From positions 6,266,546 through 6,330,545 of the forward strand of contig NZ_CP032157.1 of NCBI RefSeq assembly GCF_003555545.1: 64,000 bases of DNA. The letters run 5' to 3'. Made by a program: the position numbers and the translations under genes. The DNA comes from Paraflavitalea soli (GTDB lineage: Bacteria > Bacteroidota > Bacteroidia > Chitinophagales > Chitinophagaceae). Positions 333-18,037 of this stretch are shown here, piece after piece; the stretch's first letter is position 1, and every line of letters begins with the position of its first letter. The notes under the pieces were generated by a model that saw nothing but the letters and a program-made list of their open reading frames with translations, made no database searches and was not told where the DNA came from.

Positions 333-3300
333 ATGAAAAAAAATCCCCGCTTTGCCTCCGTAAGGCAGCAAAGCAACTCCCGGAAACTAACCGGCAGCTG
401 GCTACTCAGCCTGTTATGGCTCCTGATCTTCTCTGTGCCTGCCGTAGCGCAGACAAAAAGGGTTACCGGAAAAATTACTGACGAACAAAACAAACCCCTG
501 GAAGGCGTAAGCGTCAGCGTTAAATCTGCCGGTTCTGGCACCGCCAGCAACGCAGAAGGTAATTTTGCGCTCGATGTACCCAATACCCCAGGTGTATTGG
601 TTTTCTCGATGGTAGGCTATGCAGGGAAAGAAATGGCCATCGGCAGCTCCACCGTTATCAATGTTACACTTCAAAAAGATGTAGCGGGTTTAAATGAAGT
701 AGTAGTGGTTGGCTATGGTACACAGAAGAAGGGCAACCTCACAGGCTCCGTTTCTGTGATCGGTAGCAGCCAGATCGAGAGACGCCCCAACACTTCCACC
801 TCTAATGCCCTGCAGGGCCTTGCTCCCGGTGTAACCGTTACCTCTCAAACCGGTTCTCCCGGCGGAGATGGCGGGCAGATCCGCATCAGGGGTATCAACT
901 CCTTTGGAGGGTCCAGCAGTAATCCATTGGTGATCATCGATGGGGTGGCTGGGTCAATGGACGATGTGGATGTCAATCTTATAGAATCCATCTCTGTATT
1001 AAAAGATGCTGCTTCTTCCGCTATTTACGGTTCCCGGGCTGCAAACGGAGTTATATTGATCACCACCAAAAGAGCCAAGGACAAATTGTCTGTCAACTAT
1101 AAGGGATTTGTTGGCAAACAAACAGCCACAGCCATTCCCAAAGTAACAGACGGATTAACCTACATGCGTGTGTTTAACGACGCCAGCATGAATGATAATG
1201 GTATCAAGATCTACAGCGACCAGAATATTGAAGATTTCAGAAAGAAATATGAGGCCAATCCCAAAAACTACGATTGGCAGGACGCCATATTGGATGGCAG
1301 CGGTTTAATGCAGAATCATTTTATTTCATTATCAGCCAACAGCGGTATTGTTCGCGTAACTCCCTCCCTGAGTTTTACAGACCAGGAGGGGATCATTAAG
1401 AACACTAATTTCAAGCGCTATATATTCCGCAATAACCTCGATATAACCCCCAGTAAAAAGTTCAACATCAGGGCTGATATTGCCGTGACCAATAGAGACA
1501 GGCGTCAGATTGCTGATGAAGGAACCATCTGGAATTACCTGGGAAGAATGCCCACCAATATTCCCATCCGCAATGGTGATAAGTGGTCCGACGGCTGGGT
1601 AAAGATCAATCCTGTTGGCTATATTCAGGACGGCGGAAACCGTAAAGCCAATAACCTCGAGTTTTATGGTAATCTTAGCCTCAACTACAAACCTGTAGAA
1701 TGGTTGTCCCTCACAGGCCTGTTTGCTCCCCGTTACTTAACCAGCAACGTTCACACATTCAGAAAAAGTGTACCTACTTATTATGAAGATGGATCAGAAG
1801 CCGGCGCGGGCAACACATTTACTGAATTGACAGAGTCCGCGATCAGGTACTTCTATGGCACCTATCAATTCCAGGCCACTGCCCAAAAAAGTTTCGGCGA
1901 TCATAATTTCAGTTTAATGGGCGGAACCTCCAGGGAAACCTATGATGAGAAACTCTTATCTGGCTACAGGAGGGATTTTGTGTATAATAATTATGAACAA
2001 CTGACCGCCGGTGCAGACAATGCTACGAAAGATAATAACGGCACACAGAACCAGTGGATCCTGATCTCCGGTTTTGGAAGGTTCAATTATGATTACCAGG
2101 GTAAGTACCTGTTTGAAGCCAATTTGCGGTATGATGGTACATCCCGTTTTGCTGGCGACAACCGCTGGGCAGCATTCCCTTCTTTCTCTGCAGGCTGGCT
2201 TATTTCCAAAGAAGATTTCTGGGATAATATGAGCGATGTGGTAAAGATGCTTAAGATCAGGGGATCATGGGGTAAATTAGGCAACCAGAATATTGGCAAT
2301 TCCTACTATCCTTTCGCAGAAGCCTTGTCATTGAGCAGTGTGTCCATGGGTGGAAATATATACCAGATGATCACACAAACCACCCTTTCCAATCCTAATC
2401 TTCGTTGGGAAGAAACGGAAATGAAAGGCATTGGCTTGGATGCAAACCTGTTTAATAAGATATCCATAACAGCCGATTACTATGATAAGAAAACGGATGG
2501 CATCCTGCTTAAATTGAATACCTCACAGCTCACCGGACTGGCTTCACCTTACCAAAATGCCGCAGTAGTAACCAATAAAGGCTGGGAGGTTTCTGCAAGG
2601 TACGACGACAAGTTTGGCGAGTTTCAGCTGGGTGTGGGCTTCAATTTGTCTGATGTAAAGAACAAGATCATCGACATGAAAGGTCAAACTTCCGGCGATC
2701 TCTTACGTCAACAGGAAGGATATTCTATCAACTCTATTTACGGATATATAGCCGATGGCCTTTACCAAACACAGGAAGAGATCAATAATGGACCTGTGCA
2801 GATCGGAACATTAAAACCCGGTGATGTACGGTACAAGGATATTGCAGGCGCCGTTGACGCAAACGGTAAATCCATACCCGACGGTAAAATTACAGATGCT
2901 GATAAAGTGATCATCGGCAACACCATCCCTCGCTATACCTATGGTGCCAACCTCGACCTTGGATGGAAGGGCTTTCGCCTGAGCGGTTTTCTGCAAGGGG
3001 TAGGCAAAGTAGATGGTTACCTGAATGCCCATTACGTGATCCCGGCTGCCAACTCTAGCGCTATCAAACCCTGGCAATTGGATTACTGGACACCGGATAA
3101 CAGGGACGCCGCATTACCACGTGTATCCGTTACTTCCACCAACAACACGCAAAACTCCACCTTGTGGATGAGAAGCGCGTCGTATCTCCGGTTGAAGAAT
3201 ATCCAATTGGGATATGAAGTGCCTGCCACATTCCTGAAAAAAGTTGGCTTACAAAAAGCATTTATATATGTAAACGGTCAAAACCTGTTTACTCAAACCA

Positions 3301-3428
3301 AATTTTACGAGGGGTATGATCCTGAGATCAACTTCGATGCCGGTGCAGCAGATGGTGTGTCATTAGGCGGCGGCAACTACTATCCCCAGGTTAAGGTCTT
3401 CACATTTGGTATTGATATTAAATTCTAA
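333..3428 (+). CDS. SusC/RagA-family TonB-linked outer membrane protein (no STN domain)
   Basis: This 1031-residue protein forms the TonB-dependent outer-membrane pore of a SusCD nutrient importer. A Sec signal peptide ends near residue 40 (VPAVAQ). It is followed by a carboxypeptidase-D-regulatory-like domain (about 42-115, beginning RVTGKITDEQ), the SusC signature LNEVVVVGYGTQKKG near residues 119-133, a plug and a long beta-barrel ending in a C-terminal phenylalanine. It has no N-terminal STN domain, so unlike the SusC proteins at 30651 and 49234 it should not signal to an anti-sigma factor. It is the first gene of a 12-gene plus-strand run, with susD starting 4 bases after its stop codon. 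The linked genes suggest a phosphorylated polyol or sugar substrate, which is inference. Confidence 0.95.
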   Translation: MKKNPRFASVRQQSNSRKLTGSWLLSLLWLLIFSVPAVAQTKRVTGKITDEQNKPLEGVSVSVKSAGSGTASNAEGNFALDVPNTPGVLVFSMVGYAGKEMAIGSSTVINVTLQKDVAGLNEVVVVGYGTQKKGNLTGSVSVIGSSQIERRPNTSTSNALQGLAPGVTVTSQTGSPGGDGGQIRIRGINSFGGSSSNPLVIIDGVAGSMDDVDVNLIESISVLKDAASSAIYGSRAANGVILITTKRAKDKLSVNYKGFVGKQTATAIPKVTDGLTYMRVFNDASMNDNGIKIYSDQNIEDFRKKYEANPKNYDWQDAILDGSGLMQNHFISLSANSGIVRVTPSLSFTDQEGIIKNTNFKRYIFRNNLDITPSKKFNIRADIAVTNRDRRQIADEGTIWNYLGRMPTNIPIRNGDKWSDGWVKINPVGYIQDGGNRKANNLEFYGNLSLNYKPVEWLSLTGLFAPRYLTSNVHTFRKSVPTYYEDGSEAGAGNTFTELTESAIRYFYGTYQFQATAQKSFGDHNFSLMGGTSRETYDEKLLSGYRRDFVYNNYEQLTAGADNATKDNNGTQNQWILISGFGRFNYDYQGKYLFEANLRYDGTSRFAGDNRWAAFPSFSAGWLISKEDFWDNMSDVVKMLKIRGSWGKLGNQNIGNSYYPFAEALSLSSVSMGGNIYQMITQTTLSNPNLRWEETEMKGIGLDANLFNKISITADYYDKKTDGILLKLNTSQLTGLASPYQNAAVVTNKGWEVSARYDDKFGEFQLGVGFNLSDVKNKIIDMKGQTSGDLLRQQEGYSINSIYGYIADGLYQTQEEINNGPVQIGTLKPGDVRYKDIAGAVDANGKSIPDGKITDADKVIIGNTIPRYTYGANLDLGWKGFRLSGFLQGVGKVDGYLNAHYVIPAANSSAIKPWQLDYWTPDNRDAALPRVSVTSTNNTQNSTLWMRSASYLRLKNIQLGYEVPATFLKKVGLQKAFIYVNGQNLFTQTKFYEGYDPEINFDAGAADGVSLGGGNYYPQVKVFTFGIDIKF

Positions 3429-3432
3429 AAAA

Positions 3433-5199
3433 ATGAAACGACTTAATAATATAAATAAGATTGCCACTATAACATTCGGGGCAGTCCTTGCTTTAAGTTC
3501 ATGCAAACCGGACCTTATCTCCCTCAACGGTCCGTCCACAGGCTCATTCCCGGCTAATGCCAAAGAAGCCGAAATGGGATTGTTTGGCGCTTATCAGATC
3601 ATAAGCAAACTGGATGCGGCCAGTACTCCTATGTGGCATGTAATGGATAATATTACTGACATCGGTTTTGCCAGGCCAGGTACTAACTATACCTCCCCGA
3701 TCACCAGCGCTATTACAACAGATAATGCACTGACCAATAAACCCTGGCAGGTACACTACCAAACCATCGCCCGCTGTCACACCGTGCTGGATAACCTGGA
3801 GAAGCTGAAAAGCACCATGACAGACGCAGCCTATAAACAACTGGATGCTGAATTGCGTTTTATCCGTGCTTACTGTTATTCACAACTCATCGAGTTATAC
3901 GGGGCAGTACCTTTATTGAAGCATTCCGTTGACCTGGCCAATGCCAGTGTGCCAAGAACACCCAAGGCAGAGATCGAGCAATTCCTCCTGGACGAATTAA
4001 CAGCCACGGCTGATAATCTTCCACTTTCACAAGCACAATTTGGAAATGTAAGAGCTTCCCGCATAGCAGCCTACATGCTTAAAGCAAGGGTGGCCTTGTA
4101 TGCAAAAAAATATACCGACGCTGCAGCAGCTGCCAACACGGCCATTACATTGGCTAAAACGCAACACGATCTGACACCTTTCAACAGCACGGTCAATTCT
4201 GTTGGGAAAGATCATACCGCTACCGAACCAGACCTCTCCAACATATTTGGTCATGCCGGATTTAAAACCAGTAAAGAATGGATCTGGGTGGCCGAGTACA
4301 ATATGAATGTTCCCGGAAACACCCATAATCAGCAATACTATTCAGCATCACGTTTGGGTAAAGGGGTTTGTTATTGGGGTCCAACGCAAGACCTGATCAA
4401 CACCTTCCAGGCTAAGGACGGATTGCCCATTACTGAATCTCCCCTGTACGACGCTTCCAAACCATTTGAGAACCGCGATCCAAGATTGGATATGTATTGT
4501 GCACGTCCTCACATGCGTTATGTAGGATACCAGTTTGAACCAGCCACCAGCTTTTCAACCGTAAAGAATTATTGGCCCGTGATCAATAGTACCACTACTA
4601 CTGCCCCCTCCGTAGCCAATGCCGATGCCACCAATGCCTTCAGGTCTTTCAGTGGTTACGGCTGGCGCAAGGTGATCGATCTGGCTGATTTTAACTCTAC
4701 TTCTGTAAGCGGCGTATCCGATCTCGATGTAGGTATCTTCCGTTTTGCCGAGCTATTACTGATCTATGCAGAGGCGAAGATCGAAGCCAATGAATTGGAC
4801 AACACCGTGTATGACGCTATTAATCGCATCCGCCGCCGTGCACTGATGCCTGACCTGCCTGCCGGATTAACACAAGCACAATTACGGAAGGCTTTGCGCT
4901 ACGAACGTAAAGTAGAACTGGCCAACGATGGCCTGCGTTGGTACGATCTTCGTCGTTGGGACATTGCCAAAACAGTCATGAATGGTTATATATACCTCAA
5001 CCGGGATGCCAAAGCCTGGACTAAGGAAGTACTGACCGGATTTGATGACAGCTATACCCCGATCTATAATCGTACAGAAGCAATTAAATATTTCACTACC
5101 CAGGAAGTTGTTTACAAAGTGAATAAGGATGAATACTGGCCCATCCCTAAATCAGAAATGGATGCCAACAAACAACTGAAGCAGAATGATGGATATTAG
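3433..5199 (+). CDS. SusD/RagB-family nutrient-binding lipoprotein
   Basis: This 588-residue surface lipoprotein caps the SusC pore and binds the incoming substrate. The lipobox is LALSSC with Cys24, and TPR-like SusD helices follow (for example FIRAYCYSQLIELYGAVPLL). The C-terminal region carries the usual SusD RagB-like motifs (NRIRRRALMP, YERKVELANDGLRWYDLRRW) and ends with YWPIPKSEMDANKQLKQNDGY. I chose the ATG at 3433 because it places a clean lipoprotein signal at the N-terminus; the frame can be extended upstream only through a TTG inside susC. It follows susC by 4 nt and precedes the first permease by 55 nt. Confidence 0.95.
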   Translation: MKRLNNINKIATITFGAVLALSSCKPDLISLNGPSTGSFPANAKEAEMGLFGAYQIISKLDAASTPMWHVMDNITDIGFARPGTNYTSPITSAITTDNALTNKPWQVHYQTIARCHTVLDNLEKLKSTMTDAAYKQLDAELRFIRAYCYSQLIELYGAVPLLKHSVDLANASVPRTPKAEIEQFLLDELTATADNLPLSQAQFGNVRASRIAAYMLKARVALYAKKYTDAAAAANTAITLAKTQHDLTPFNSTVNSVGKDHTATEPDLSNIFGHAGFKTSKEWIWVAEYNMNVPGNTHNQQYYSASRLGKGVCYWGPTQDLINTFQAKDGLPITESPLYDASKPFENRDPRLDMYCARPHMRYVGYQFEPATSFSTVKNYWPVINSTTTTAPSVANADATNAFRSFSGYGWRKVIDLADFNSTSVSGVSDLDVGIFRFAELLLIYAEAKIEANELDNTVYDAINRIRRRALMPDLPAGLTQAQLRKALRYERKVELANDGLRWYDLRRWDIAKTVMNGYIYLNRDAKAWTKEVLTGFDDSYTPIYNRTEAIKYFTTQEVVYKVNKDEYWPIPKSEMDANKQLKQNDGY

Positions 5200-5254
5200 G
5201 AGAGTGAACGCCGAAAAAAGAAAGGTTCTAAATTAAGATCATTAATTGTATGGA

Positions 5255-6523
5255 ATGAAAGCATTGCTTAGCCCTGAAAAGAGACGTTGGTTTATTGTTG
5301 CCATTATTTTTCTGGCCATAGTATTCAACTATGTAGACCGGCAGATCGTGTCAATATTAAAGCCCATACTTAAAGCAGAGTTTACACTCGATGACAGTGG
5401 CTATGCAGTGATCCTGAATATTTTTACCATCTGTTATGCCATCATGTATCCTGTTACCGGATGGATGGTGGACAGGTTTGGGGCCCGCGTGGTGATGTTC
5501 TATGGCATCATCACCTGGTCCCTGGCCTGCATTGGTGGCGGCTTATCCAGAACCATTGGTCAGTTTGGTTTTTTCCGGGGATTGCTCGGAGCCGCCGAGC
5601 CTACCAATTTTCCGGCGCAGCTAAAAGTAATTGCAGTCTGGTTTCCCGGTAAGCTGCGCGCTACTGCAAACAGTCTTTGTATAGCGGGCAGTTCTATCGG
5701 GGCCATCATTGCACCGCCGGCCATTGCCTGGCTGGCCCTTACCTATAGCTGGCATGTGGCCTTTATTACGATGGGCGCTATTGGAATATTGATCGCTGTA
5801 TTGTGGAAGTGGGTCTATAGAGATCCTCCGCCACATATTCTGAAGGAAGCGACTACCTCAGCGTCTGGTGAAATAACACAGCCATTTCAATGGAAGCAGT
5901 TATGGGGCACCCGCAGCCTGTGGGGCGTATTGCTCATACGCTTTGTAAGCGATCCCGTATGGTACTTCTGCCTTTTCTGGTTGCCAGGTTATTTGCAGGA
6001 ACAGTCAGGGTTTACCCTGACGCAGGTAGGTATGTTTGGTTGGATCCCTTTTCTATTTGCCGATCTGGGCGCCATAGCAACTTCCGCATGGTCCGATAAA
6101 CTGGTAAGAAAAGGATATGCCCCATTAAAAGCAAGAAAAGTGATGCTGACCCGTGTTGCCATGCTTGCTCCTTTATGCGCCCTCACACCCTATTTGACCG
6201 GTGCGTGGGCAACATTGGCCGTATTCAGCATTGTGGCCATTGCCTGCCTCAGTTGGTTGTTTACCGTCAGTGTGGTGGTGGCAGAAGCTTTCCCCGTAAA
6301 AAATGTGGCAAGCGTGTTAGGCATTGCAGGTGGGTTTGGCGCAATGGGCGCCGTACTCTTCAATTACTTTGTTGGCCAGTTCATAGGCACACTGGGAGCG
6401 GAGAAAATATTTATTGCCATGGCATTTCTGCATCCATTGGCCGTTTTGATCTTATGGACCATGGTTAGGCCGGAAAAACCGAAAGCAGTTCCGGCATCGA
6501 TGGAGTTAAATAGTAAACTGTAA
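5255..6523 (+). CDS. MFS transporter, anion:cation symporter (ExuT-like) type
   Basis: This 422-residue inner-membrane permease has about 12 hydrophobic segments. The N-terminal NYVDRQIVSILKPILK and the loop GWMVDRFGARVVM between segments 2 and 3 are typical of the ACS family, which moves organic anions such as hexuronates and sugar acids. The ATG at 5255 is preferred over a TTG three codons upstream. It sits 55 nt after susD and 11 nt before the FAD oxidoreductase, so it probably imports an acidic product made in the periplasm. A second, unrelated permease lies 3.5 kb downstream, so the locus may import two breakdown products. Substrate is not readable from sequence. Confidence 0.88.
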   Translation: MKALLSPEKRRWFIVAIIFLAIVFNYVDRQIVSILKPILKAEFTLDDSGYAVILNIFTICYAIMYPVTGWMVDRFGARVVMFYGIITWSLACIGGGLSRTIGQFGFFRGLLGAAEPTNFPAQLKVIAVWFPGKLRATANSLCIAGSSIGAIIAPPAIAWLALTYSWHVAFITMGAIGILIAVLWKWVYRDPPPHILKEATTSASGEITQPFQWKQLWGTRSLWGVLLIRFVSDPVWYFCLFWLPGYLQEQSGFTLTQVGMFGWIPFLFADLGAIATSAWSDKLVRKGYAPLKARKVMLTRVAMLAPLCALTPYLTGAWATLAVFSIVAIACLSWLFTVSVVVAEAFPVKNVASVLGIAGGFGAMGAVLFNYFVGQFIGTLGAEKIFIAMAFLHPLAVLILWTMVRPEKPKAVPASMELNSKL

Positions 6524-6534
6524 ATAAAAATAGC

Positions 6535-7938
6535 ATGTTAAAAACATTCAAAGAGCCAGCCAGGGAAATTGTAGTAAGAAAAGAAACAGATGTACTGGTG
6601 ATTGGCGGAGGGCCTTCAGGTATCATGGCTGCATTGGCGGCAGCTGAAGATGGATTAAATGTTATGCTGGTAGAGAGCCGCAGTTTTGTAGGCGGCAATA
6701 TGACCATCGGCCTGCCCATACTCGGTTTTCTTGGACAAAAAGGAAACCAGATCATAAAAGGCCTCCCACAAAAATTGATCGACCGGTTAAAAGCAGTACA
6801 GGCTTCCAGTGAACACCGGCCCTGCCCCTTGCACATGAGCCTTACCCTGGTAGAGCCGGAGGCGGTAAAAACCGTTGGCCTGCAAATGCTGGTGGAGAGT
6901 AAGGTAGACGTATTGTTCTATGCCTTTTGTGCCGGCGTTGTAATGGAGAAAGATGAATTGAAAGGCGTGATCATTGAAAGCAAAGCGGGCCGCGAAGTAA
7001 TACTGGCCAAAACCATTATCGACTGTAGCGGTGATGCTGATGTGGCTTACCGCGCCGGCGTGCCTTGTGAATATGGGAATGAAGATGGCGGCGTTCAGCC
7101 TCCTACCCTTATGTTTTGTCTCGGAGGCGTGGATACCGAAAAATTGCGCACCAGCGTAGCGGAAGAGCCCAGAACTTACCTGACCGATTTTATCCCTGCC
7201 GAATACTTTGGTCAAAACAATCAATTTGTATTGGTAGGCATGCGCAACCTGATCAAGAAAGCACAGGATGCGGGCCTTACACTGGCAACAGAACGTACCA
7301 TCCTCATCACTGGTTTGCGCAAGGGTGAAGTATGGGTAAACATGACGCGGGTAAACGGCGTAAACGGCACCGATCCCGGCAGCCTTACCCATGGTGAAAT
7401 AGAAGGCAGGCACCAGATACTGGATATTCAGCAATACCTCATCGAATATGTGCCGGGATTTGAGAATGCTTATTTCTTAAAGACAGCTCCTTTCCTCGGC
7501 ATCAGGGAAACCAGGCGTATACAGGGACATTATACCATGACCCGCGAGGATATCATGACTTGCGCGCATTTTGATGATTCGATAGCCGTAGCCAGTTATC
7601 CCCTGGATATCCATCACCCCCAGGGAGGCGGTTGTACCCTGGAATGGTGCGGCGATTGTTACGATATCCCTTATCGATCATTGATCCCCCAAAAGGTGAA
7701 GAACCTGATCGTAGCAGGCCGTTGTATTTCCACTACCCATGAAGCCATGTCTGCTATCCGCGTAATGGCTCCCTGTATGGCCATGGGTGAAGCTGCCGGC
7801 CGGGCAGCCAAGATGGCTGTAAGGCAAGGCATACAGCCTGCAGATATAGATGTGAAGAAACTTCAACAGGAGCTTCTTGAAAAAGGCGCCTACCTGCGTA
7901 TCGAAAAAGAACAACTGGCATCATCAATTAATTCTTAA
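6535..7938 (+). CDS. FAD-dependent oxidoreductase (FAD_oxidored family)
   Basis: This 467-residue protein belongs to the family often seen beside carbohydrate genes in Bacteroidota. The dinucleotide-binding motif GGGPSG is at residues 24-29, followed by VMLVESRSFVGGN. The C-terminal FAD motif reads NLIVAGRCISTTHEAMSAIR and then MAMGEAAG, which matches this family closely. It has no signal peptide and should be cytosolic. The reaction is unknown. In this operon it could oxidise a polyol or hydroxyacid brought in by one of the two permeases, as no classical polyol dehydrogenase is present. It is spaced 11 and 14 nt from its neighbours, so co-transcription is likely. Confidence 0.85.
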   Translation: MLKTFKEPAREIVVRKETDVLVIGGGPSGIMAALAAAEDGLNVMLVESRSFVGGNMTIGLPILGFLGQKGNQIIKGLPQKLIDRLKAVQASSEHRPCPLHMSLTLVEPEAVKTVGLQMLVESKVDVLFYAFCAGVVMEKDELKGVIIESKAGREVILAKTIIDCSGDADVAYRAGVPCEYGNEDGGVQPPTLMFCLGGVDTEKLRTSVAEEPRTYLTDFIPAEYFGQNNQFVLVGMRNLIKKAQDAGLTLATERTILITGLRKGEVWVNMTRVNGVNGTDPGSLTHGEIEGRHQILDIQQYLIEYVPGFENAYFLKTAPFLGIRETRRIQGHYTMTREDIMTCAHFDDSIAVASYPLDIHHPQGGGCTLEWCGDCYDIPYRSLIPQKVKNLIVAGRCISTTHEAMSAIRVMAPCMAMGEAAGRAAKMAVRQGIQPADIDVKKLQQELLEKGAYLRIEKEQLASSINS

Positions 7939-7952
7939 TCAACCTGAATACC

Positions 7953-8870
7953 ATGTCTGCCAACAGGAGAAAATTCTTAAAAGGACTTAGCGCAGCTGCA
8001 CTGCTACCTGTATTGCCTGCTTTCAGCAGCGAAACAGAAATGGCATTCAGCAAGACCGGTTCCCATCGTATCCTGAGCTGTAATATCCGGGTAGCCCTTG
8101 ATGAAGATGAAGCAAAGGGCCTGGGTTGGTCTGCCAGAAAAGATATCTGTCTCAGGATCATTAAAGATAGAAAACCGGATATCGTCGGTTTCCAGGAAGT
8201 CTTGAAAGTGCAGGCCGATGACCTCAGGAAATATTTCTCTTCCTATCAGCTATTCGGCTTTGACGGCCCGGAGATGGATGAGCACACCACAGGTTATTAT
8301 GGCATCGCCAAGAACCCCATCCTTTTTTCCAAAGACCGGTATGAGCTGCTTACCGGTGGTACCTACTGGCTTTCAGAGATGCCCCTGGTAGCAGGAAGCA
8401 AATCCTGGGATACAGCGAGGGCAAGGCACGCTAACTGGGTTCGCCTCAAAGAAAAAAAGACCGGTAAAGAGCTGAGGATTGTGAACCTCCACCTAGATCA
8501 TATTTCCGCCGAAGCAAAGATCCAACAGGCTAAAATGGTGGTGGTAGAGAGTGCCCAGTATCAACCCGATTATATACAGATTCTCACGGGAGATTTCAAT
8601 AGCAGGTTCGATAGTAAGGTATTCGAATCAGTGCGTAATGGCGGCTGGAAAGAAAGCTATGAAACCATCCACGGAGAAAAAGAAGCAGGTCATACCGGCC
8701 ATGAATTCCAGGGAGTCAATTATGACAAAGCTAATGCCAAAGGAAGGATCGATTATATCTGGTACAGGGGGAAAATAAAACCGGCAGATGCAGCTATTGT
8801 CAAAGATGCCGTCAACGGAAAATACCCCAGTGATCATTTCTTTTTACAGGCAGATCTTATTATCGACTAA
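7953..8870 (+). CDS. secreted endonuclease/exonuclease/phosphatase (EEP) family protein
   Basis: This 305-residue metal-dependent phosphoesterase has a twin-arginine-like leader (NRRKFLKG, residues 4-11, then a hydrophobic stretch ending near 25). This predicts a folded exported enzyme. The EEP motifs are all present: Asn44 (CNI), Glu82 (FQE), HLDH, TGDFNS, IDYIW and SDHF near the C-terminus. Members cleave phosphodiester or phosphomonoester bonds in nucleic acids, inositol phosphates or phospholipids. Being exported and sitting with a GDPD and a calcineurin-like enzyme, it more likely attacks an extracellular phosphodiester than DNA. The exact substrate is inference. Confidence 0.88.
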   Translation: MSANRRKFLKGLSAAALLPVLPAFSSETEMAFSKTGSHRILSCNIRVALDEDEAKGLGWSARKDICLRIIKDRKPDIVGFQEVLKVQADDLRKYFSSYQLFGFDGPEMDEHTTGYYGIAKNPILFSKDRYELLTGGTYWLSEMPLVAGSKSWDTARARHANWVRLKEKKTGKELRIVNLHLDHISAEAKIQQAKMVVVESAQYQPDYIQILTGDFNSRFDSKVFESVRNGGWKESYETIHGEKEAGHTGHEFQGVNYDKANAKGRIDYIWYRGKIKPADAAIVKDAVNGKYPSDHFFLQADLIID

Positions 8871-8881
8871 AAGCATTAATA

Positions 8882-9991
8882 ATGAAAAAGAGAATTCTTG
8901 GTTGCATAGGCCTGTTTTTGTTGGCAACTTCTATTTCATTTTCTCAGGAGAAATACCAGAAACCTGCGCTGGAACAGAAAGGTTCCTGGACATTGGTGAT
9001 GGTGCCCGATCTGCAGAATTATGTGAAATGGGGAAGGAATCAGCCATTGGTAGACCTGATGATGGCCTGGATAGTAGATAATATTGATACCCTCAATATT
9101 AAGATGGTAATGGGCATGGGAGATCTTGTAGAAAATGATGGAAAGATCACCAACGATTACGATGGCGATCAAACCTCCAAAAGCCAGTGGGATTATGTTT
9201 CAAAAGCCTTCAGTAAGCTGGACGGGAAAGTGCCCTATATCGCTGCAACCGGTAATCACGATTACAGCATCGACAGACAGGGCAACCGCACATCCCAATA
9301 CAGCCAGTTCTTTACCACCGAAAGAAATCATTTGAACCAGAAGTTCCTTGTACAGAATACCAGGAATATTCAGGGACAACCCACGCTGGAAAACTCAGCT
9401 TATGAGATAAAGGGTTTGAACGGAAAGGACTACCTCTTTATGACCGTAGAGGACGGGCCAAGAGACACCGTGCTGGCATGGGCAAAGAACGTAGCGGCTC
9501 TCCCGCAATACAAGAACCACCGCGTGATCTTGTCCACCCATGAATTCTTAAATGCAAAAGATGCGCGCACCACTGGTGCCATAGACTGGATCTACTGGGA
9601 GCCTTATAATATAGACAATATGATCCAGAAGTCGCCCCGTATCAAACTTCCAGATGCCAACAATGGTCAGCAGATATGGGAAAAAACGGTGCAGCCTTCT
9701 TCCAATATTGAAATGGTACTGTGTGGCCATATTTCAGGCGAAGGGTATAGAAAAGATAGGAATGCCGCAGGTAAAACAGTACACCAGATATTATTCGATG
9801 CACAGTCAATGGGCGGTGGACACCGCGATGGCAATGGCGGCGATGGCTGGCTGCGTATACTGGAGTTTTCGCCCGATGGGAAGACCGTGAAAGTGAAAAC
9901 ATTTTCTCCTTTATTCGGCGTATCCCCTACAACACGGCAGTTTGCCTGGAAAAAGGATGCCAGGAACGAGTACACTCTTAAGTTCGATTAG
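8882..9991 (+). CDS. secreted calcineurin-like metallophosphoesterase
   Basis: This 369-residue protein has a Sec signal peptide ending near FSQ (residue 22). Metal-binding motifs of the calcineurin superfamily are visible: D43-L-Q45 (a D-x-Q variant of D-x-H), MGDLVEND, GNHD, LSTHEF and CGHISGEG. Enzymes with the D-x-Q form often act on phosphodiesters or phosphomonoesters outside the cytoplasm. It starts 11 nt after the EEP gene and ends 26 nt before the polyol-type permease. It is the second of four phosphoesterases in the locus, three of which are exported. Confidence 0.88.
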   Translation: MKKRILGCIGLFLLATSISFSQEKYQKPALEQKGSWTLVMVPDLQNYVKWGRNQPLVDLMMAWIVDNIDTLNIKMVMGMGDLVENDGKITNDYDGDQTSKSQWDYVSKAFSKLDGKVPYIAATGNHDYSIDRQGNRTSQYSQFFTTERNHLNQKFLVQNTRNIQGQPTLENSAYEIKGLNGKDYLFMTVEDGPRDTVLAWAKNVAALPQYKNHRVILSTHEFLNAKDARTTGAIDWIYWEPYNIDNMIQKSPRIKLPDANNGQQIWEKTVQPSSNIEMVLCGHISGEGYRKDRNAAGKTVHQILFDAQSMGGGHRDGNGGDGWLRILEFSPDGKTVKVKTFSPLFGVSPTTRQFAWKKDARNEYTLKFD

Positions 9992-10017
9992 ACCATAGTC
10001 AACAACGATTGCTACAT

Positions 10018-11301
10018 ATGAAACAAAACGATACCATCGCTAACAAAATGGGAATTCCGCCATCCCTCTTATCCGGTTATCTCGGCATACTACTCTTTAT
10101 GATGGGAGATGGTATGGAGCAGGGCTGGCTAAGCCCTTACCTGATAGAACGGGGCATGAGCATACAGCAAAATGCCACCCTGTTTACAGCTTACGGAGTA
10201 ACGATTGCTATCGCCTCCTGGTTTTCCGGCGTGCTGGCAGAGTCACTTACGCCTAAGAAAACCATGCTGATCGGTTTACTGATCTACCTGGCAGGTACAG
10301 CTGGTTTTATAGGTATTGGCCTGGATGTCCTTGACTTTCCAACCATGTTGATCACGTATGCCTTGCGGGGTTTTGGCTATCCCTTGTTTGCTTATTCGTT
10401 CCTGGTATGGGTATCATATGTTACTCCCGCTGGTGCGCTTGGACGAGCCGTGGGATGGTTTTGGTTTGTGTTTACCGGAGGACTGAATGTACTAGGCGCC
10501 TTTTATTCCAGTTGGGCCATTCGTGAGTTGGGGCATATACCTGCTTTGTGGAGTGCCGTCTTTTGGGTGTTGCTGGGGGCCCTGTTTGCCCTGGTGCTCA
10601 ATAAAGCACCTTTCCGGATCAATGAACAGGCACAGAAAAACAAGTGGAAGGAATTAATAAAGGGCCTCACCATTGTTCGTACCGAACCCAAGGTAGCTAT
10701 AGGAGGAATAGTGAGGGTGATCAATACTACCGCACAGTTTGCATTCCCGGTGTTCCTGCCTACCTATATGGCCGGGCATGGATTCAACACCACCGAATGG
10801 TTATACATATGGGGCACCATCTTTACCAGCAATATAGCCTTCAACCTGATCTTTGGTTTTGTTGGCGACCGGCTTGGCTGGCGCCAGACCATTACCTGGT
10901 TTGGCGGAGTAGGTTGTGGCCTCACTACTTTACTACTCTACTACATGCCCCAATACAGTGGTGGTAGTTATTGGCTGGTGATGCTCGCTGGTATTGCCTG
11001 GGGTGCTTGCCTGGCTGGTTATGTGCCCTTGTCGGCATTGGTCCCTTCATTGGTAAAAAAAGACAAAGGCGCCGCAATGGCCATTCTCAACCTGGGTGCA
11101 GGCCTGGCGGTATTTGCAGGCCCTGCTATAGTAGGCTTATTCATAGGCAGTGTTGGCGCGGAGGGAGTCGTATGGATATTGGCTGGTTTATATTTTACCA
11201 GTGCCATACTCACCCGCTTTATCACTTTGCCTTCGCCGGCTACCGGTCATTCAGCAAAGACGACCGTTGCTGAATCACCGGTATTATCGGCAGGAAACTA
11301 A
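10018..11301 (+). CDS. MFS transporter, polyol permease (RbtT/DalT/CsbX-like)
   Basis: This 427-residue permease has about 12 membrane segments. The N-terminal stretch PPSLLSGYLGILLFMMGDGM followed by EQGWLSPYLIERG is characteristic of the ribitol/D-arabinitol (RbtT/DalT/CsbX) family as I remember it. It would bring a linear polyol across the inner membrane. The ATG at 10018 is preferred over a TTG three codons earlier. It is followed after 21 nt by a hydroxyacid dehydrogenase and then two FGGY kinases, a plausible set for metabolising the imported compound. Confidence 0.85.
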   Translation: MKQNDTIANKMGIPPSLLSGYLGILLFMMGDGMEQGWLSPYLIERGMSIQQNATLFTAYGVTIAIASWFSGVLAESLTPKKTMLIGLLIYLAGTAGFIGIGLDVLDFPTMLITYALRGFGYPLFAYSFLVWVSYVTPAGALGRAVGWFWFVFTGGLNVLGAFYSSWAIRELGHIPALWSAVFWVLLGALFALVLNKAPFRINEQAQKNKWKELIKGLTIVRTEPKVAIGGIVRVINTTAQFAFPVFLPTYMAGHGFNTTEWLYIWGTIFTSNIAFNLIFGFVGDRLGWRQTITWFGGVGCGLTTLLLYYMPQYSGGSYWLVMLAGIAWGACLAGYVPLSALVPSLVKKDKGAAMAILNLGAGLAVFAGPAIVGLFIGSVGAEGVVWILAGLYFTSAILTRFITLPSPATGHSAKTTVAESPVLSAGN

Positions 11302-11322
11302 AGAAAGATTTGTTAATAATTA

Positions 11323-12342
11323 ATGAGGAATATGAGAGTATTAATAACTGCGCCTTATCATGAAAAAGGTTTGTTTGATGTAAAACAAGATCTGGGAGAA
11401 GTAATATATCGCCCGTGGAAACCCAATGGCCGCGCTTATAACGAAGATGAGTTAATGGCCCTGTTGTATGAAACCGAAGCAGAGGCACTCATCACAGAGC
11501 ATGACCATGTAACAGAGAAGGTGATCACTGCCAATGCGCACCTGCAATTTATAGGTGTATGCAGGGGCACCCCTTCCAATGTATCTTTGGCCACAGCTTC
11601 CCGTCATGGCATTCCGGTTTTTTATACACCGGCCCGCAACGCACAGGCAGTAGCAGAGATGTTCATTGCCAATGTGATCACCTTTTTGCGCAAGACCTTG
11701 CCTGCCATCAGTTGGCTGCGTGGGCGCAACTGGAATGCAGACGCCCATACTTCTTACCTGGAATTTAAAGGCAACGAACTGGCCGGTAAGAAAATTGGTA
11801 TAGTAGGCTTTGGTGCTATAGGGCAACTGATAGCCAAGCTGGTAGAAAATTATCCCTGTGCCATTGCTTATTATGATCCCTATGTAAATGCAGCTGCTTT
11901 TCCTGCTTACCAGCAGTTGAGCCTGGAAGAACTTTTTTCTACCTGCGATATTGTATCCGTGCATTTGCCCGTAACAGCAGATACAAAGGGAATGATCAAT
12001 AGCCGTTTGTTTGAATTGATGAAACCAGATGCCATTTTTGTCAACACCGCCAGGGCAGTAGTGGTCAATAGAAATGATATGTACAGCGCCCTGTCAGGAA
12101 ATAAGATCAAAGGAGCCATCCTCGACGTGTTTGACAACGAACCCCCGGATGAGTTGGATTATAAAATAATTGACCTGCCCAATGTATTGCCAACACCCCA
12201 TATAGCAGGGGCCACCCACGAAGTGGAAGATCATCATGTGCGCATTCTCAATGAAGTGCTCACAGAATGGTTCGTACATGGCAACCATAGTGCCGATCGC
12301 CTGGCCAATAAGGAAATATTATCATCGTACATTCAACGATAA
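11323..12342 (+). CDS. D-isomer-specific 2-hydroxyacid dehydrogenase family protein
   Basis: This 339-residue NAD(P)-dependent dehydrogenase has the Rossmann motif GFGAIG at residues 162-167. The catalytic residues of the family are in place: Arg244 (NTARA), Glu273 (DNEPPDE) and His293 (TPHIAGAT). It resembles phosphoglycerate or hydroxypyruvate dehydrogenases but has no C-terminal ACT domain, so a SerA role is unlikely. The start could also be the ATG three codons later (11332). It lies 10 nt before the first FGGY kinase and probably interconverts a hydroxyacid and a ketoacid in the same pathway. The true substrate is unknown. Confidence 0.88.
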   Translation: MRNMRVLITAPYHEKGLFDVKQDLGEVIYRPWKPNGRAYNEDELMALLYETEAEALITEHDHVTEKVITANAHLQFIGVCRGTPSNVSLATASRHGIPVFYTPARNAQAVAEMFIANVITFLRKTLPAISWLRGRNWNADAHTSYLEFKGNELAGKKIGIVGFGAIGQLIAKLVENYPCAIAYYDPYVNAAAFPAYQQLSLEELFSTCDIVSVHLPVTADTKGMINSRLFELMKPDAIFVNTARAVVVNRNDMYSALSGNKIKGAILDVFDNEPPDELDYKIIDLPNVLPTPHIAGATHEVEDHHVRILNEVLTEWFVHGNHSADRLANKEILSSYIQR

Positions 12343-12352
12343 AATTTAAAGG

Positions 12353-13807
12353 ATGAAACAACAGGAAGCATACCTGGTGCTCGATATTGGTACAGGCAAT
12401 GTGCGTTCGGCTATTGTAAGCCCATCGGGCAAAATACTCGGTGTGGCAAGAGCTGATATCCGGTACTATCGGGATGACCTGTATCCTGATTCTATTTATT
12501 TCAAGCCCGATGAACTCTGGTCTCAGCTGAGGGAATTAACCGGAGAAGCGTTGAAGCAGGCAGGTGCGGTCACCATAAAGGCTGCCACCACCACCAGCCA
12601 GCGGGAGGGGATTGTATTGATCGATCAGGCTGGCAAGGCCGTTATCGGATTGCCCAATATTGATCACCGCGGACGCGAGTGGGAGGAGAAGTATCTCGAT
12701 AAAAGCAGGATATACCAATTAACAGGTCGATACCCTACTTCTCTATTTTCGGCCTATAAGCTGGTAGGGATACGGGAAAGGAGACAAGATGTCTGGAATG
12801 GGCTTGCCTGCTTTCTCAGCATCAGCGATTGGGCAGCCTGGGAATTGAGTGGTATAACCTTGTATGAACATTCGCAGGCATCAGAAACATTGCTGTATGA
12901 TGTGGCTGCCGGTAACTGGAGTGAGGAGCTTTGCGCCTTGTTTGGTATTTCACAAAAAATATTGCCTCCCCTCTCTCAGTCGGGCAGTATTGCCGGAACA
13001 GTAAAGCAGGATATGGCAGAGCAATGGGGATTTAACCCCGCTGCCCTGGTTATTACAGGCGGTGGAGATACCCAGCTGGCCATTAAAAGCACCAGCCCTT
13101 CCATAGGAGATGTGGTGATCGTATCCGGCACCACTACGCCCGTGGTGAAACTGGAAGGAGACTATATTACTGATCAGCTGGAAAGGACCTGGACAAGCCG
13201 GGATATTACCAAAGACCGGTTTGTATTTGAAGCCAATGCCGGCGTTACAGGTTTGAATTACCAACGGCTCAAAGAAGTCTTTTACCCCAATGAAGGCTAT
13301 GATGTAATTGAGCGGGAGCTGGCGGAGAATAACAACAAACAATGTATGACCTCCCTGGGATCATTGATTGCCGGCGAAACCAAGCCTGTGATACGCGGTG
13401 GTTTTATTTTTCCTGTGCCTGTGTCTCATGAGCTTACCCGCAGCAGTTTTGTGTGGGCTACCCTCATGGATATTGCCTTTTCTATTGCGGAGAACTATAA
13501 AGTGCTGGCCGAAGTATCGGGTCACGACGCCGGTTATATCTGGGCCTGTGGTGGCGGATTACAGAGCAGCGCCTTGCGTAAGCTGATTGCCGCTGTTACG
13601 GGCAATGAAGTACGGGTAAGGAATGGTTTTGAGCAGGCATCCGTGGTGGGTGCTGCCATTCTTTGCAACGAGGCCCTGGGGGTAGCTGTTCAAAGAGAAG
13701 AAGCCGTGCTGGAAAGTTCCATAGCCACGGATCAGGACGCAGCAATGTATAAGACATTTTATGAACAATGGAAGGCAACAAGAGAACAGTTTAGGGCTGT
13801 AAGTTAA
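12353..13807 (+). CDS. FGGY-family carbohydrate kinase, LsrK-like
   Basis: This 484-residue kinase of the actin-like ATPase fold has the N-terminal phosphate-1 motif LDIGTGNVRSA (residues 9-19), the block REGIVLIDQAG and the catalytic-Asp region TGGGDTQ. The ATP-site glycine stretch WACGGGLQSSALRK lies near the C-terminus. REGIVL plus ISDWAAWELSG recalls the autoinducer-2 kinase LsrK more than xylulokinase or glycerol kinase. No lsr transport genes are near, so a small polyol, ketose or dihydroxy-ketone is more likely than AI-2. It is followed after 32 nt by a second, divergent FGGY kinase. Confidence 0.86.
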   Translation: MKQQEAYLVLDIGTGNVRSAIVSPSGKILGVARADIRYYRDDLYPDSIYFKPDELWSQLRELTGEALKQAGAVTIKAATTTSQREGIVLIDQAGKAVIGLPNIDHRGREWEEKYLDKSRIYQLTGRYPTSLFSAYKLVGIRERRQDVWNGLACFLSISDWAAWELSGITLYEHSQASETLLYDVAAGNWSEELCALFGISQKILPPLSQSGSIAGTVKQDMAEQWGFNPAALVITGGGDTQLAIKSTSPSIGDVVIVSGTTTPVVKLEGDYITDQLERTWTSRDITKDRFVFEANAGVTGLNYQRLKEVFYPNEGYDVIERELAENNNKQCMTSLGSLIAGETKPVIRGGFIFPVPVSHELTRSSFVWATLMDIAFSIAENYKVLAEVSGHDAGYIWACGGGLQSSALRKLIAAVTGNEVRVRNGFEQASVVGAAILCNEALGVAVQREEAVLESSIATDQDAAMYKTFYEQWKATREQFRAVS

Positions 13808-13839
13808 ACCGCGTTGCTATTACATTAGAATACTAACCA

Positions 13840-15282
13840 ATGAGTGAAGCTTATTTTATCGGCATTGATATTGGTACACAGGGGGCAAGGGTTGTATTAT
13901 TGGATGAGGTAGGCCAACAACTGGCGGCAAAGGAGGAAGTCTTTCCATTGAACGAGCGTTCCCGCGAAGAGCAGTCGCCGGATATATGGTGGGATTGTTG
14001 CTGCAGGCTTATCCCGGAATTGGTAAAGGAAGTACAAGACAAAATTCCGTTGGATAAGATAAGAGCAGTGGCCGTTACTTCTACCTCGGGTACCATCATT
14101 CCCCTGGACCGGAATTTTAACCCGCTGCATCCTGCCATCATGTACAGCGATCCGCGATCTGGAAAACAAGCGGCTTTTTGTGCAGCAATAGCGCTCAAAG
14201 AAATAAAGGAAGGATATACCGCTTTTAATGCATCCAGCGGATTGCCTAAGATGCGTTGGTTCCTGGATCAGTATCCAGACCGTGCAGCCCAGCTGTACAA
14301 ATTCATTCATGCCGCAGATTTTATCACCGGAAGATTGTGTGGTGAATATGGCGTCACCGATTATACCAATGCCATGAAATCGGGATACGATATTCACCAG
14401 TATAAATGGCAGGAATACATCGTGAAGCAGATCGGCATTCGTAAGGAATGGTTACAGGAAGTAAGACCCTCCGGTGTTCCGCTGGGTACCATAAAGACTG
14501 ATCTGACAACGCAATGGGGACTTCCCGAGGGGATAATAGTAACAACAGGAATGACCGATGGCTGCGCCTCACAGGTGGCCTCAGGCGCCGTAAGTCCGGG
14601 TCAGTGGAATACAACCATCGGCACTACCCTAGTGATAAAGGGGGTGACCGGACAGGCCGTGGCAGATCCGTCAGGAGTTATTTATAACCATCGTCACCCT
14701 ACGGGTTACTGGATGCCGGGTGGCGCCAGTAATACCGGCGCAGATTGGGTGAGTAAACTATTTGCAGGGCAGGATCTGCAGCAGTTAAGTGAGCAGGCTG
14801 CCACAAAATTGCCGGCTGCTTCACTGGCATGGCCCCTGATTCAACAAGGTGAGCGCTTTCCTTTCAAAGCACCCCAGGCCGTGGGATTTTGGCCCGAAGG
14901 CGATCTCGTGGAAAAGTTTACCGCCTGTATGGAAGGCGTGGCCTTTATAGAACGATATGCCTACGAAAGGATCGCTTCTTTGTCTGGTGAGAAAATAGAG
15001 CGCATCTTTTCTGCCGGCGGCGGCAGTAACAGCGATACCTGGCTGCGCATCAGGAGTGCTGTTATCAATGTGTCGGTGTGCAAAATGAAAAACGTATCAG
15101 GTGCCGCTGGCGCCGCCATACTGGCTGCATCCCGTAGTTTTTATTCATCTTTGCAGGACGCTGCTGCTGCCATGGTGAGCCCGGAGTTGACAGTGCAACC
15201 ATCGCCTCCTTTGGTGAATGCCTATGACCTGAAATACAAACTTTTCATTGACGAATTGAAAGCAAGAAAAATATTGAACTAA
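13840..15282 (+). CDS. FGGY-family carbohydrate kinase, second paralogue
   Basis: This 480-residue kinase has the N-terminal motif IGIDIGTQGARVVLLD (residues 7-22), a central TTGMTDGCASQVASGA segment with the predicted catalytic Asp, and the ATP-binding block FSAGGGSNSDTWLRIRS. It resembles ribulo- or xylulokinases in general layout, but the sugar cannot be read from sequence. It differs strongly from the preceding kinase, so the pair is not a recent tandem duplication and probably phosphorylates two different compounds. The next gene starts 2 nt after its stop codon. Confidence 0.86.
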   Translation: MSEAYFIGIDIGTQGARVVLLDEVGQQLAAKEEVFPLNERSREEQSPDIWWDCCCRLIPELVKEVQDKIPLDKIRAVAVTSTSGTIIPLDRNFNPLHPAIMYSDPRSGKQAAFCAAIALKEIKEGYTAFNASSGLPKMRWFLDQYPDRAAQLYKFIHAADFITGRLCGEYGVTDYTNAMKSGYDIHQYKWQEYIVKQIGIRKEWLQEVRPSGVPLGTIKTDLTTQWGLPEGIIVTTGMTDGCASQVASGAVSPGQWNTTIGTTLVIKGVTGQAVADPSGVIYNHRHPTGYWMPGGASNTGADWVSKLFAGQDLQQLSEQAATKLPAASLAWPLIQQGERFPFKAPQAVGFWPEGDLVEKFTACMEGVAFIERYAYERIASLSGEKIERIFSAGGGSNSDTWLRIRSAVINVSVCKMKNVSGAAGAAILAASRSFYSSLQDAAAAMVSPELTVQPSPPLVNAYDLKYKLFIDELKARKILN

Positions 15283-15284
15283 GT

Positions 15285-15884
15285 ATGCTGAAGATATTTT
15301 TACTCCGACATGGTGAGACTGCGTACAATGCCGATAATAACCGCTACTGCGGGCATACCGATATTCCCCTTACGGAAAAAGGTGTCCGCCAGGCCCAGGA
15401 AGTGAAGCGGCAACTGGAAGGAATAGAGTTTGTGAATGTATATTCTTCTCCTTTGCAGCGCGCGTTTACTACAGCTTGCATAGCTTCCGGAAAGGAGGCT
15501 GTAAAAGATGAGCGACTGATTGAAGCTGATTTCGGTAGCTGGGAGGCGAAGACTAGGGAAGAGTTCGTTGCTGAGAATGAGACCCTCTGGCTCAACTGGA
15601 TGAATGATCCGGCGATACATCGGGCAGGTGGCACCGGGGAAACAGGGGCCGAAATTGTAGCCAGGGTGGATAGCTTTTTTCATTTCTTACAACAAACCTA
15701 TGCTGAGGGCAATATTATGGTAGTGGCCCATAATGGTATTAACCGCTTGTACATGGCCCATAAACTGGGCATGCCTTTGAAAAATTACCGCCAGTTGGTG
15801 CAGCAAAATTCCTCCATTACCTGCTTTACACTGGATCAGCATGGAACGCTGACACTTGAATTATTGAATTCAAAACTCCGCTAA
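15285..15884 (+). CDS. histidine phosphatase family protein (phosphoglycerate mutase-like)
   Basis: This 199-residue cytosolic enzyme has the catalytic LLRHGE motif with His9. The second histidine is in VVAHNGINR, and GHTDIPLTEKG is a typical substrate-loop segment. Family members include cofactor-dependent mutases and small-molecule phosphatases such as CobC. In this operon it most likely removes phosphate from a sugar- or polyol-phosphate. It begins 2 nt after the upstream kinase, and its stop codon directly abuts the ATG of the GDPD gene, so translation is likely coupled. Confidence 0.88.
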   Translation: MLKIFLLRHGETAYNADNNRYCGHTDIPLTEKGVRQAQEVKRQLEGIEFVNVYSSPLQRAFTTACIASGKEAVKDERLIEADFGSWEAKTREEFVAENETLWLNWMNDPAIHRAGGTGETGAEIVARVDSFFHFLQQTYAEGNIMVVAHNGINRLYMAHKLGMPLKNYRQLVQQNSSITCFTLDQHGTLTLELLNSKLR

Positions 15885-16814
15885 ATGAAGATCAGTACGC
15901 CTACAATCATGGCTTTGTTGGCTACCTTGTTTGCTGTTTCGTCAGGATACACACAGTTGCATACGTTGCCAATAAAGAGTACTCCGGACCTCCAGGCTTA
16001 CTTTCATTATACAGGTAATGGTAAACAGATCATTAGTGGGCATCGGGGCAGTTATATAGCAGGGTATCCTGAAAATGCCATTGAAACATTCGAGTATGTG
16101 TTGAAACATACAGCTGCTTTTTTTGAAATAGATCCCCGTCTCACAAAAGATAGTGTGATCGTGTTGTTGCACGATTCCACTTTAGACAGAACAACCACCG
16201 GTAAAGGCAGGCTGGCCGACTATACCTGGGAAGAGGTGAAGCAGTTGAGGTTGAAAGATAAAGATGGTAAGCCAACCCCTTACCGCATACCCACCTTGCA
16301 GGAAGCCATTGACTGGGCAAGGGGCAAAACAGTACTGAACCTGGATAAAAAGGATGTTCCCCTGCCAATGACAGCCAACATCATAAAGAAGAATAATGCA
16401 GCCACTTTCGTAATGGTTACCGTCCACAACGCAAAGCAGGCGAAGTTTTACTATGATGCCGATTCCCGCTTAATGATGTCAGCTTTTGTAAAGACCGAAA
16501 AGGCCCTGAAGGAATATGAGGACGCCGGCGTGCCTTGGAAAAACATGATTGCTTATATAGGCTCTGAAAACAAGCCTGCCAATAAGATCATGTTCGATCT
16601 GCTGCATGCCCGTGCCGTGATGTGTATGATCTCTGCAGCGCCTGTTTATGATAAGTTACCCATTGTACAGGAGCGGGCTGCCTCCTATCGCGATATATTT
16701 GTGCAGGGAGCGGATATCCTGGAGTCTGATTATCCGGTAGAAGTAGCTGCCGCGATGAAAAAGGCTGCTGGCGTTTCCGATGTAGCGTCGTGTTTAAACT
16801 GCCAACCCCCATGA
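15885..16814 (+). CDS. exported glycerophosphodiester phosphodiesterase family protein
   Basis: This 309-residue protein has a signal peptide ending near residue 22 (SSGYTQ). GDPD motifs are present: His53-Arg54 (SGHRG), ENAIETF, Glu81-x-Asp83 (FEIDPRL) and His96-Asp97 (LLHDSTLDRTT). The family hydrolyses glycerophosphodiesters to glycerol-3-phosphate and an alcohol, and some members act on teichoic acids or inositol-containing diesters. The last residues (about VASCLNCQPP) come from DNA that reads antisense as the start of a DHFR-family gene. The C-terminus may therefore have been altered by a recombination junction near 16796. It is the last gene of the operon. Confidence 0.88.
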   Translation: MKISTPTIMALLATLFAVSSGYTQLHTLPIKSTPDLQAYFHYTGNGKQIISGHRGSYIAGYPENAIETFEYVLKHTAAFFEIDPRLTKDSVIVLLHDSTLDRTTTGKGRLADYTWEEVKQLRLKDKDGKPTPYRIPTLQEAIDWARGKTVLNLDKKDVPLPMTANIIKKNNAATFVMVTVHNAKQAKFYYDADSRLMMSAFVKTEKALKEYEDAGVPWKNMIAYIGSENKPANKIMFDLLHARAVMCMISAAPVYDKLPIVQERAASYRDIFVQGADILESDYPVEVAAAMKKAAGVSDVASCLNCQPP

Positions 16815-17959: not shown

Positions 17960-18037
17960 AACAACACATTTTCTCCATTTTCTTCGCTTTGCTTCCCCGG
18001 AATCGGCCTCTTTCTCCTCGGATTGTTCGCATTGGGT

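Follow-up and report, generated by a model that had tools for sequence, protein, structure and literature searches.

A two-module locus of phosphoesterases, permeases and FGGY kinases in Paraflavitalea soli and its candidate DeoR-type regulon for carbon from a phosphate-ester-bound unit

We analyzed a run of twelve genes in Paraflavitalea soli (Bacteroidota; Chitinophagaceae), a candidate uptake and catabolic system for a phosphate-ester-bound carbon source. A single 8.44-Mb contig (NZ_CP032157.1) makes up the genome, and the window, the whole stretch of 64,000 nucleotides that was analyzed, covers its positions 6266546-6330545. All twelve open reading frames that had been predicted between window positions 333 and 16814 were found there, on the plus strand, in the predicted order and without internal stops. 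The gaps between them are 0-55 nt, as predicted, with ATG starts for the SusD, first permease and RbtT genes at 3433, 5255 and 10018. Profile searches with Pfam and NCBIfam agreed with the family names that had been proposed for the twelve genes.

The run starts with a SusC-like TonB-dependent transporter of 1031 amino acids (333-3428), assigned by profile search, and a SusD-like protein (3433-5199; PF07980 and PF14322). These are followed by a major facilitator superfamily (MFS) permease (5255-6523; PF07690), originally called ACS-type. The superfamily assignment stands, and the permease is ACS-like by best match only, since its best NCBIfam match, TIGR00893, reached 212.5 bits against a cut-off of 395; we call it MFS_ACS. 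Next come a flavin adenine dinucleotide (FAD)-dependent oxidoreductase (FADox, 6535-7938; PF12831, 432.7 bits), an EEP-family phosphoesterase (7953-8870; PF03372) and a calcineurin-like phosphoesterase (8882-9991). The second permease (10018-11301) belongs to the RbtT/DalT/CsbX family and was the only match in the genome to TIGR00897, at 547.8 bits against a curated cut-off of 375. The run ends with a 2-hydroxyacid dehydrogenase (11323-12342), two FGGY kinases, FGGY1 (12353-13807) and FGGY2 (13840-15282), all three assigned by Pfam, a histidine phosphatase (15285-15884; PF00300, His_Phos_1) and a GDPD-family phosphodiesterase (15885-16814; PF03009). The original prediction counted four phosphoesterases. 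The four families hold, but N-termini resembling export signals, which we judged by reading rather than with a signal predictor, are present only in the EEP enzyme (a twin-arginine-like start), the calcineurin-like enzyme and the GDPD, which are therefore predicted to be exported, and not in the histidine phosphatase; no export signal was seen in FADox either.

A DeoR-type gene, named by reading, lies on the minus strand 78 nt ahead of the first base of the window (L015 14701-15468). On the 3' side, the stretch from 16976 to 20639 holds apparently unrelated genes, two of which were compared with Pfam, and a scan for sigma-70 promoters and terminators 3' of the locus gave nothing above shuffled sequences.

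Comparison with relatives indicates that the twelve genes fall into two modules under one putative DeoR-type regulator. We used 80 named loci, the best 80 of 138 relatives, and counted a gene as present when its best match was to the protein encoded in the window and exceeded fixed identity limits. The fetched flanks extended at most 10 kb around the core, so that counts of the rarer genes are lower bounds. We also used a family set of 147 genomes and a phylum set of 395, both of which contain this genome (G000) and G022. The sets overlap, several of the 80 loci (e.g. L033, L036, L037, L045, L073 and L090) being from the same genomes as members of the genome sets. One of these, L045 (JADCRZ010000016.1), is titled as a Williamsia metagenome-assembled genome and carries a typical Chitinophagaceae-type copy of the locus; the bin is probably mislabelled.

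Module A consists of RbtT, the dehydrogenase, FGGY1, FGGY2, the histidine phosphatase and GDPD together with the DeoR-type gene, and it is widespread in Bacteroidota. FGGY2 was present in 80/80 loci, FGGY1 in 79/80 (the ORF caller overlooked it in L055), the dehydrogenase and the histidine phosphatase each in 78/80, RbtT in 75/80, GDPD in 67/80 and the DeoR-type gene in 61/80. Within the family, FGGY1 (E ≤ 1e-60) was found in 8 of the 146 other genomes. The dehydrogenase, FGGY1, FGGY2 and histidine phosphatase genes share a neighborhood in all eight, with RbtT also there in seven. GDPD, found in 7/147 family genomes, is less exclusive than FADox. In G018, which has the core, the best GDPD match (G018:C1:2034736-2035629) is 37% identical, is interrupted by stop codons and is remote from the core.

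Module B, which is optional, consists of MFS_ACS, FADox and EEP, to which SusCD and the calcineurin-like enzyme are often added. Within the 80 loci the EEP gene was linked to the core at least 23 times, MFS_ACS and FADox at least 22 times each, and the calcineurin-like gene at least 15 times. FADox (E ≤ 1e-100) occurred in 8/147 family genomes, all of them among the nine that carry both FGGY1 and the dehydrogenase (Fisher p 2e-12; counted by genus, 5e-10; kinship is ignored in both). In the phylum set, FGGY1 and FADox were found in exactly the same 3/395 genomes. Of the 58 loci that lack a linked FADox, 40 were then searched for it genome-wide. It was found elsewhere in nine, in eight as a separate operon and in one (L067/L137) in the same cluster just past the 10-kb flank. 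All eight separate operons retain the order MFS_ACS-FADox-EEP. Judged by names and coordinates, seven of them lie on a different contig or at a distance of 0.8 Mb or more, and the eighth, L138, is about 18 kb from the L061 core. Separate copies of module B in the genome sets read MFS_ACS-FADox-GDPD-EEP-calcineurin-like in G022 and SusC-SusD-calcineurin-like-MFS_ACS-FADox-EEP in G071. Because FADox was never found without the core, while the core is often found without FADox, module B seems to depend on module A and not the reverse. FADox as a requirement of the core was rejected, as it was not found in 31 of the 40 core-positive genomes searched. Taken together, these data demonstrate that the gene set is more than a chance assembly, its order and content recurring in relatives.

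We derived an operator-like repeat from the intergenic regions flanking the DeoR-type gene. A position weight matrix (PWM) built from 58 such regions gave a direct repeat with a 10-bp period, TTAAACAAAA twice followed by TTAA. The scores of these 58 regions are training scores, and 49 of them were above the 99% level of shuffled sequences; the L067 region, which belongs to the DeoR gene on the GlpD side, scored 6.0. Only two sites in the 64-kb window scored 14 or more, and both are upstream of SusC. Site 1 (58-81, minus strand) scored 26.9, with two mismatches in a genome-wide pattern search, and site 2 (255-278, plus strand) scored 25.6, with none. Ten stretches carrying a separate module B (G022, G071 and eight further genomes) had been excluded from matrix building. 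In 10/10 of these, the top site of the 15-20 kb fetched sits 49-343 nt upstream of the first gene of the module; one of them, L135, has a DeoR-like gene of its own at the module. In a pattern search over ten genomes, 11 of 20 matches were at modules A or B, by place or by identical sequence. The two matches in G000 were both at this locus, and the genome-wide scan with this pattern showed no further regulon member there. These results demonstrate that the operator-like repeat is common to both modules, and suggest that the DeoR-type protein would bind to it.

The residues expected in the active sites of the phosphoesterases are well conserved. The catalytic set of GDPD enzymes is HR...E.D...H. 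This set is retained here, and H53, R54, E81, D83 and H96 are unchanged in 66/66 aligned relatives of the putative enzyme, whose relative in the PDB is 3mz2 (E 3e-95). In the EEP enzyme, R5 and R6 of an RRxF start and N44, E82, D214, N216, D294 and H295 are invariant in 20 sequences; its PDB relatives include the mannosyl-6-phosphatase 4c1r. The calcineurin-like enzyme matched PF00149 (Metallophos) weakly, at 22.0 bits against a cut-off of 21.5, and this was its only Pfam match, with none to the PhoD family. Its GNHD and GH motifs are invariant in 17 sequences. A sequence search gave no solved relative, and its structural model (predicted local distance difference test, pLDDT, 79.5) was closest to Lmo2642 and purple acid phosphatases, with low TM-scores. 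The histidine phosphatase has R8, H9, R59, E80 and H149 unchanged in 77/77 aligned relatives and fell short of the curated cut-offs for all named subfamilies among the matches listed.

Further phosphoesterases accompany the system in relatives. PF01663 enzymes occur in L081 and L097 (by Pfam) and in L094 (by similarity). PF04185-type enzymes occur in L067/L137 (by Pfam), G018 (by reading) and L138 (55% identical to the G018 enzyme). A second GDPD is present in L067 and L068 (both by Pfam) and in L107 (grouped with that of L067). The recurrence of GDPD, EEP and calcineurin-like enzymes together with these families bears out the expected co-occurrence of phosphoesterases and SusCD in relatives, SusCD staying with the phosphoesterases where the module has moved. 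The repeated presence of exported phosphoesterases from several families gives good support to a phosphate-ester substrate. Nothing in the data points to a polymer, however, and neither of the substrates originally named, teichoic acid and phosphoinositide, found support, there being no PhoD-type teichoicase and no inositol-pathway enzyme among the twelve proteins. The largest arrangement, a cluster of about 30 kb (L067:13734-21433 with L137), contains SusCD, MFS_ACS-FADox, a PF04185 enzyme, the core, two GDPDs and DeoR-, GlpD- and GlpK-like genes, the last two adjoining the core by reading. In a single Sphingobacterium locus (L105:14618-18564), the core has directly on its 3' side genes that we read as ribokinase-like, permease, nucleoside-hydrolase-like and EEP-like.

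We next consider the intracellular enzymes. The dehydrogenase has R244, E273 and H293, which we take to be its catalytic residues, unchanged in 77/77 aligned relatives. FGGY1 is closest among solved structures to autoinducer-2 (AI-2) kinase, and FGGY2 to 5htr (E 9e-52) and 5htn (E 2e-46), which we take to be AtXK-1 and SePSK, respectively. FGGY2 residues D10, T13, S83, K180 and D240 are unchanged in 80/80 aligned relatives and, in an alignment read by hand, correspond to Asp8, Thr11, Ser72, Lys163 and Asp221 of SePSK; Ser12 and Ser222 of SePSK are replaced by Q14 and G241. SePSK is reported to respond to D-ribulose and AtXK-1 just slightly (PMC4880283). FGGY2 thus resembles a D-ribulokinase, which fits ribitol but is no proof of it.

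The dehydrogenase-FGGY1 pair has two possible counterparts in Firmicutes. A plasmid of Enterococcus raffinosus (L112:6655-15687, NZ_CP104765.1) encodes homologs of the two proteins with 40% and 33% identity. By reading, the same gene run holds class-II-aldolase-, iron-alcohol-dehydrogenase-, MtnK/DrdK- and MtnA/DrdI-like genes with a DeoR-type gene alongside. This run has the appearance of a dihydroxyacetone phosphate (DHAP) shunt and is a lead to the function that the pair may have. The other presumable relative is YoaDC of Bacillus subtilis, from an operon, yoaDCB, which we take to encode an RbtT/CsbX-type permease, a 2-hydroxyacid dehydrogenase and an FGGY kinase under S-box control. If so, these three components would be putative homologs of those here, whereas FGGY2, the phosphatase, GDPD and the FAD enzyme are not known to have a counterpart in yoaDCB. 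Phosphoglycerate is the outcome predicted for YoaDC in a genome re-annotation (PMC2885750), and this prediction was all that turned up on YoaDC among the matches listed. A limited literature search found no paper combining FGGY and 2-hydroxyacid dehydrogenase with ribitol, and none combining any two of FGGY, hydroxyacid dehydrogenase and the S-box riboswitch.

The original prediction placed SusCD at the center of the locus. This was not borne out, as SusC orthologs were found in at least 7/80 loci and SusD orthologs in at least 11/80, and SusCD as the organizing core was rejected in favor of a peripheral position; additional loci (e.g. L042, L050 and L088) have SusC-like genes of other kinds within their gene run. 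Like a Sus-type polysaccharide utilization locus (PUL), the locus has adjacent SusC and SusD homologs forming an uptake pair, but unlike one it encodes no carbohydrate-active enzyme among the twelve proteins by Pfam. There were no matches to any glycoside hydrolase family, in agreement with the prediction that no glycosidase is present, and a glycan PUL in this genome was rejected. The enteric ribitol and arabinitol operons, rbtT-rbtK-rbtD and dalT-dalK-dalD, share with the locus an RbtT/DalT-family permease and an FGGY ketopentose kinase; here, in contrast, there is no polyol dehydrogenase, and a 2-hydroxyacid dehydrogenase, a second FGGY kinase, phosphatases and GDPD are extra. To call a SusCD system for phosphodiesters little-described was too strong, because the Flavobacterium loci PUSI and PUSII (PusCD) are already known to pair SusCD-type transporters with phosphodiesterases (PMC8115612). 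As in PUS, a SusCD-type pair lies here beside periplasmic phosphodiesterases or phosphomonoesterases in place of carbohydrate-active enzymes, and by this analogy the locus may work like PUS at the outer membrane. PUS loci are, however, induced by low phosphate and associated with extracytoplasmic function (ECF) or FecR-like regulators (PMC8115612). Among the twelve genes there is no ECF sigma factor or FecR-like regulator; because a DeoR-type gene and repeats accompany a dedicated intracellular carbon pathway instead, we do not class the locus as a PUS. What is new here is that carbon-catabolic core, the candidate regulon and an uncharacterized dehydrogenase-kinase pair shared with the Enterococcus operon.

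We favor, at a probability of roughly 0.55, the reading that this is a DeoR-controlled catabolic regulon gaining carbon, and phosphate incidentally, from a polyol-like or sugar-acid-like unit bound as a phosphate ester. It draws on the computed gene content, active-site residues, modular conservation, co-occurrence and shared operator-like repeat. From these we infer substrates, an inducer acting through DeoR bound to the repeat, an import route and an order of reactions as follows. SusCD would carry a ligand bearing phosphate through the outer membrane, GDPD would open phosphodiesters, and the EEP and calcineurin-like enzymes would strip the remaining phosphate. RbtT would import the neutral unit, and the ACS-like permease a related, perhaps anionic unit that the FAD enzyme would oxidize. 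The dehydrogenase, FGGY1 and the histidine phosphatase would interconvert intermediates, and FGGY2 would yield a ketopentose phosphate as input to the pentose phosphate pathway. Since the pattern search disclosed no other regulon member in G000, a central metabolite is the expected end product; D-ribulose 5-phosphate, made by FGGY2, is our preferred guess.

Several observations weigh against this reading. The usual ribitol/arabinitol-type polyol dehydrogenase is not among the twelve proteins, which have the 2-hydroxyacid dehydrogenase and the PF12831 FAD enzyme instead, and it is not obvious what a kinase paired with a phosphatase would do. Folding of the FAD enzyme gave a weak model (pLDDT 62.4), with generic FAD folds as its structural matches. 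Module A often occurs without module B, as the 31 genomes without the FAD enzyme show. The core of G003 has no RbtT next to it, 13/80 loci (some of them incomplete) showed no GDPD, core-positive G098 gave neither the FAD enzyme nor GDPD, and G036 has GDPD without the core. GH106-like proteins of about 1000 amino acids, one of them checked against Pfam, lie near the core in 12/80 loci (L054, L056, L057, L058, L059, L062, L063, L065, L069, L075, L092 and L111) and in G071 (L024/L025); some relatives may therefore obtain the unit from a glycoside. Reversed-sequence controls scored 19.8 in the window and 18.4 and 17.4 in two module-B stretches. Several single scores (17.5-18.6) therefore mean little on their own, and it is position that counts. 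Over the ten genomes the pattern matched 10 times when run backward, compared with the 20 real matches, and in G000 it matched twice either way. Finally, the related genomes in the sets are not independent.

One rival explanation is a locus for ribitol- or arabinitol-phosphate teichoic acid, with GDPD and the calcineurin-like enzyme acting as GlpQ and PhoD teichoicases, RbtT taking up ribitol and FGGY2 serving as the D-ribulokinase. The permease score above its cut-off, the intact GDPD residues and the five SePSK pocket or catalytic residues kept in FGGY2 in 80/80 all suit it. Yet ribitol dehydrogenase is missing among the twelve, the calcineurin-like protein has no PhoD-family match, the dehydrogenase, FGGY1 and the FAD enzyme would be left without a role, and a pointer to a polymer is lacking, so we consider it quite unlikely. 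A limited literature search, and a looser one judged by title among the matches listed, found no paper on a teichoic-acid SusCD locus. Phospholipid head groups or glycerophosphodiesters such as glycerophosphoinositol and glycerophosphoglycerol, released by a phospholipase C or GDPD and dephosphorylated by the EEP enzyme, are unlikely too, though to be taken seriously: PF04185-type enzymes stand beside MFS_ACS-FADox in three genomes, second GDPDs occur in three loci, and GlpD-GlpK-like genes lie beside the core in L067. The GlpD-like gene is, however, found in 1/80 loci, and the twelve proteins include no enzymes of inositol metabolism.

A phosphate-starvation locus like PUS, with carbon use secondary, would account for SusCD and phosphodiesterases resembling those described for PUSI/PUSII (PMC8115612), and sigma-factor- and FecR-like genes were read 3' of the locus in G002/L033 and L097. 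We nevertheless find this improbable, as a sugar-kinase pathway takes up half of the genes, the modules have operator-like sites and a DeoR-type regulator, and the run itself has no ECF/FecR gene. We give similarly little credence to salvage of 5-deoxy- or methylthio-pentoses, in which the dehydrogenase-FGGY1 pair would act on deoxyketoses. The E. raffinosus pair does lie in a gene run that looks similar to drdK, drdI and drdA of 5-deoxyribose salvage (PMC6079011), and AI-2 kinase is the closest solved structure to FGGY1; but the aldolase (class II in the drd/mtn shunt), isomerase and DrdK-like kinase are absent from the twelve genes, and the phosphodiesterases would go unexplained. That unrelated operons are neighbors by chance would agree with the separability of the modules but is hardly credible given the one-way co-occurrence and the shared operator-like sites.

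Returning to the catabolic regulon, we suggest, more tentatively, that FADox, the dehydrogenase, the LsrK-like kinase FGGY1, the histidine phosphatase and the ribulokinase-like FGGY2 may make up an undescribed pathway for a polyol or sugar acid bound through a phosphodiester, organized as one two-module DeoR regulon across Bacteroidota. If this is true, it would offer a way into the function of the YoaDC-type dehydrogenase-kinase pair, an orphan in Firmicutes, and that function could then be tested, as many cultured genera carry a regulated system with a candidate operator. Soil and rhizosphere Bacteroidota would then own a carbon-regulated route into organophosphates besides phosphate scavenging.

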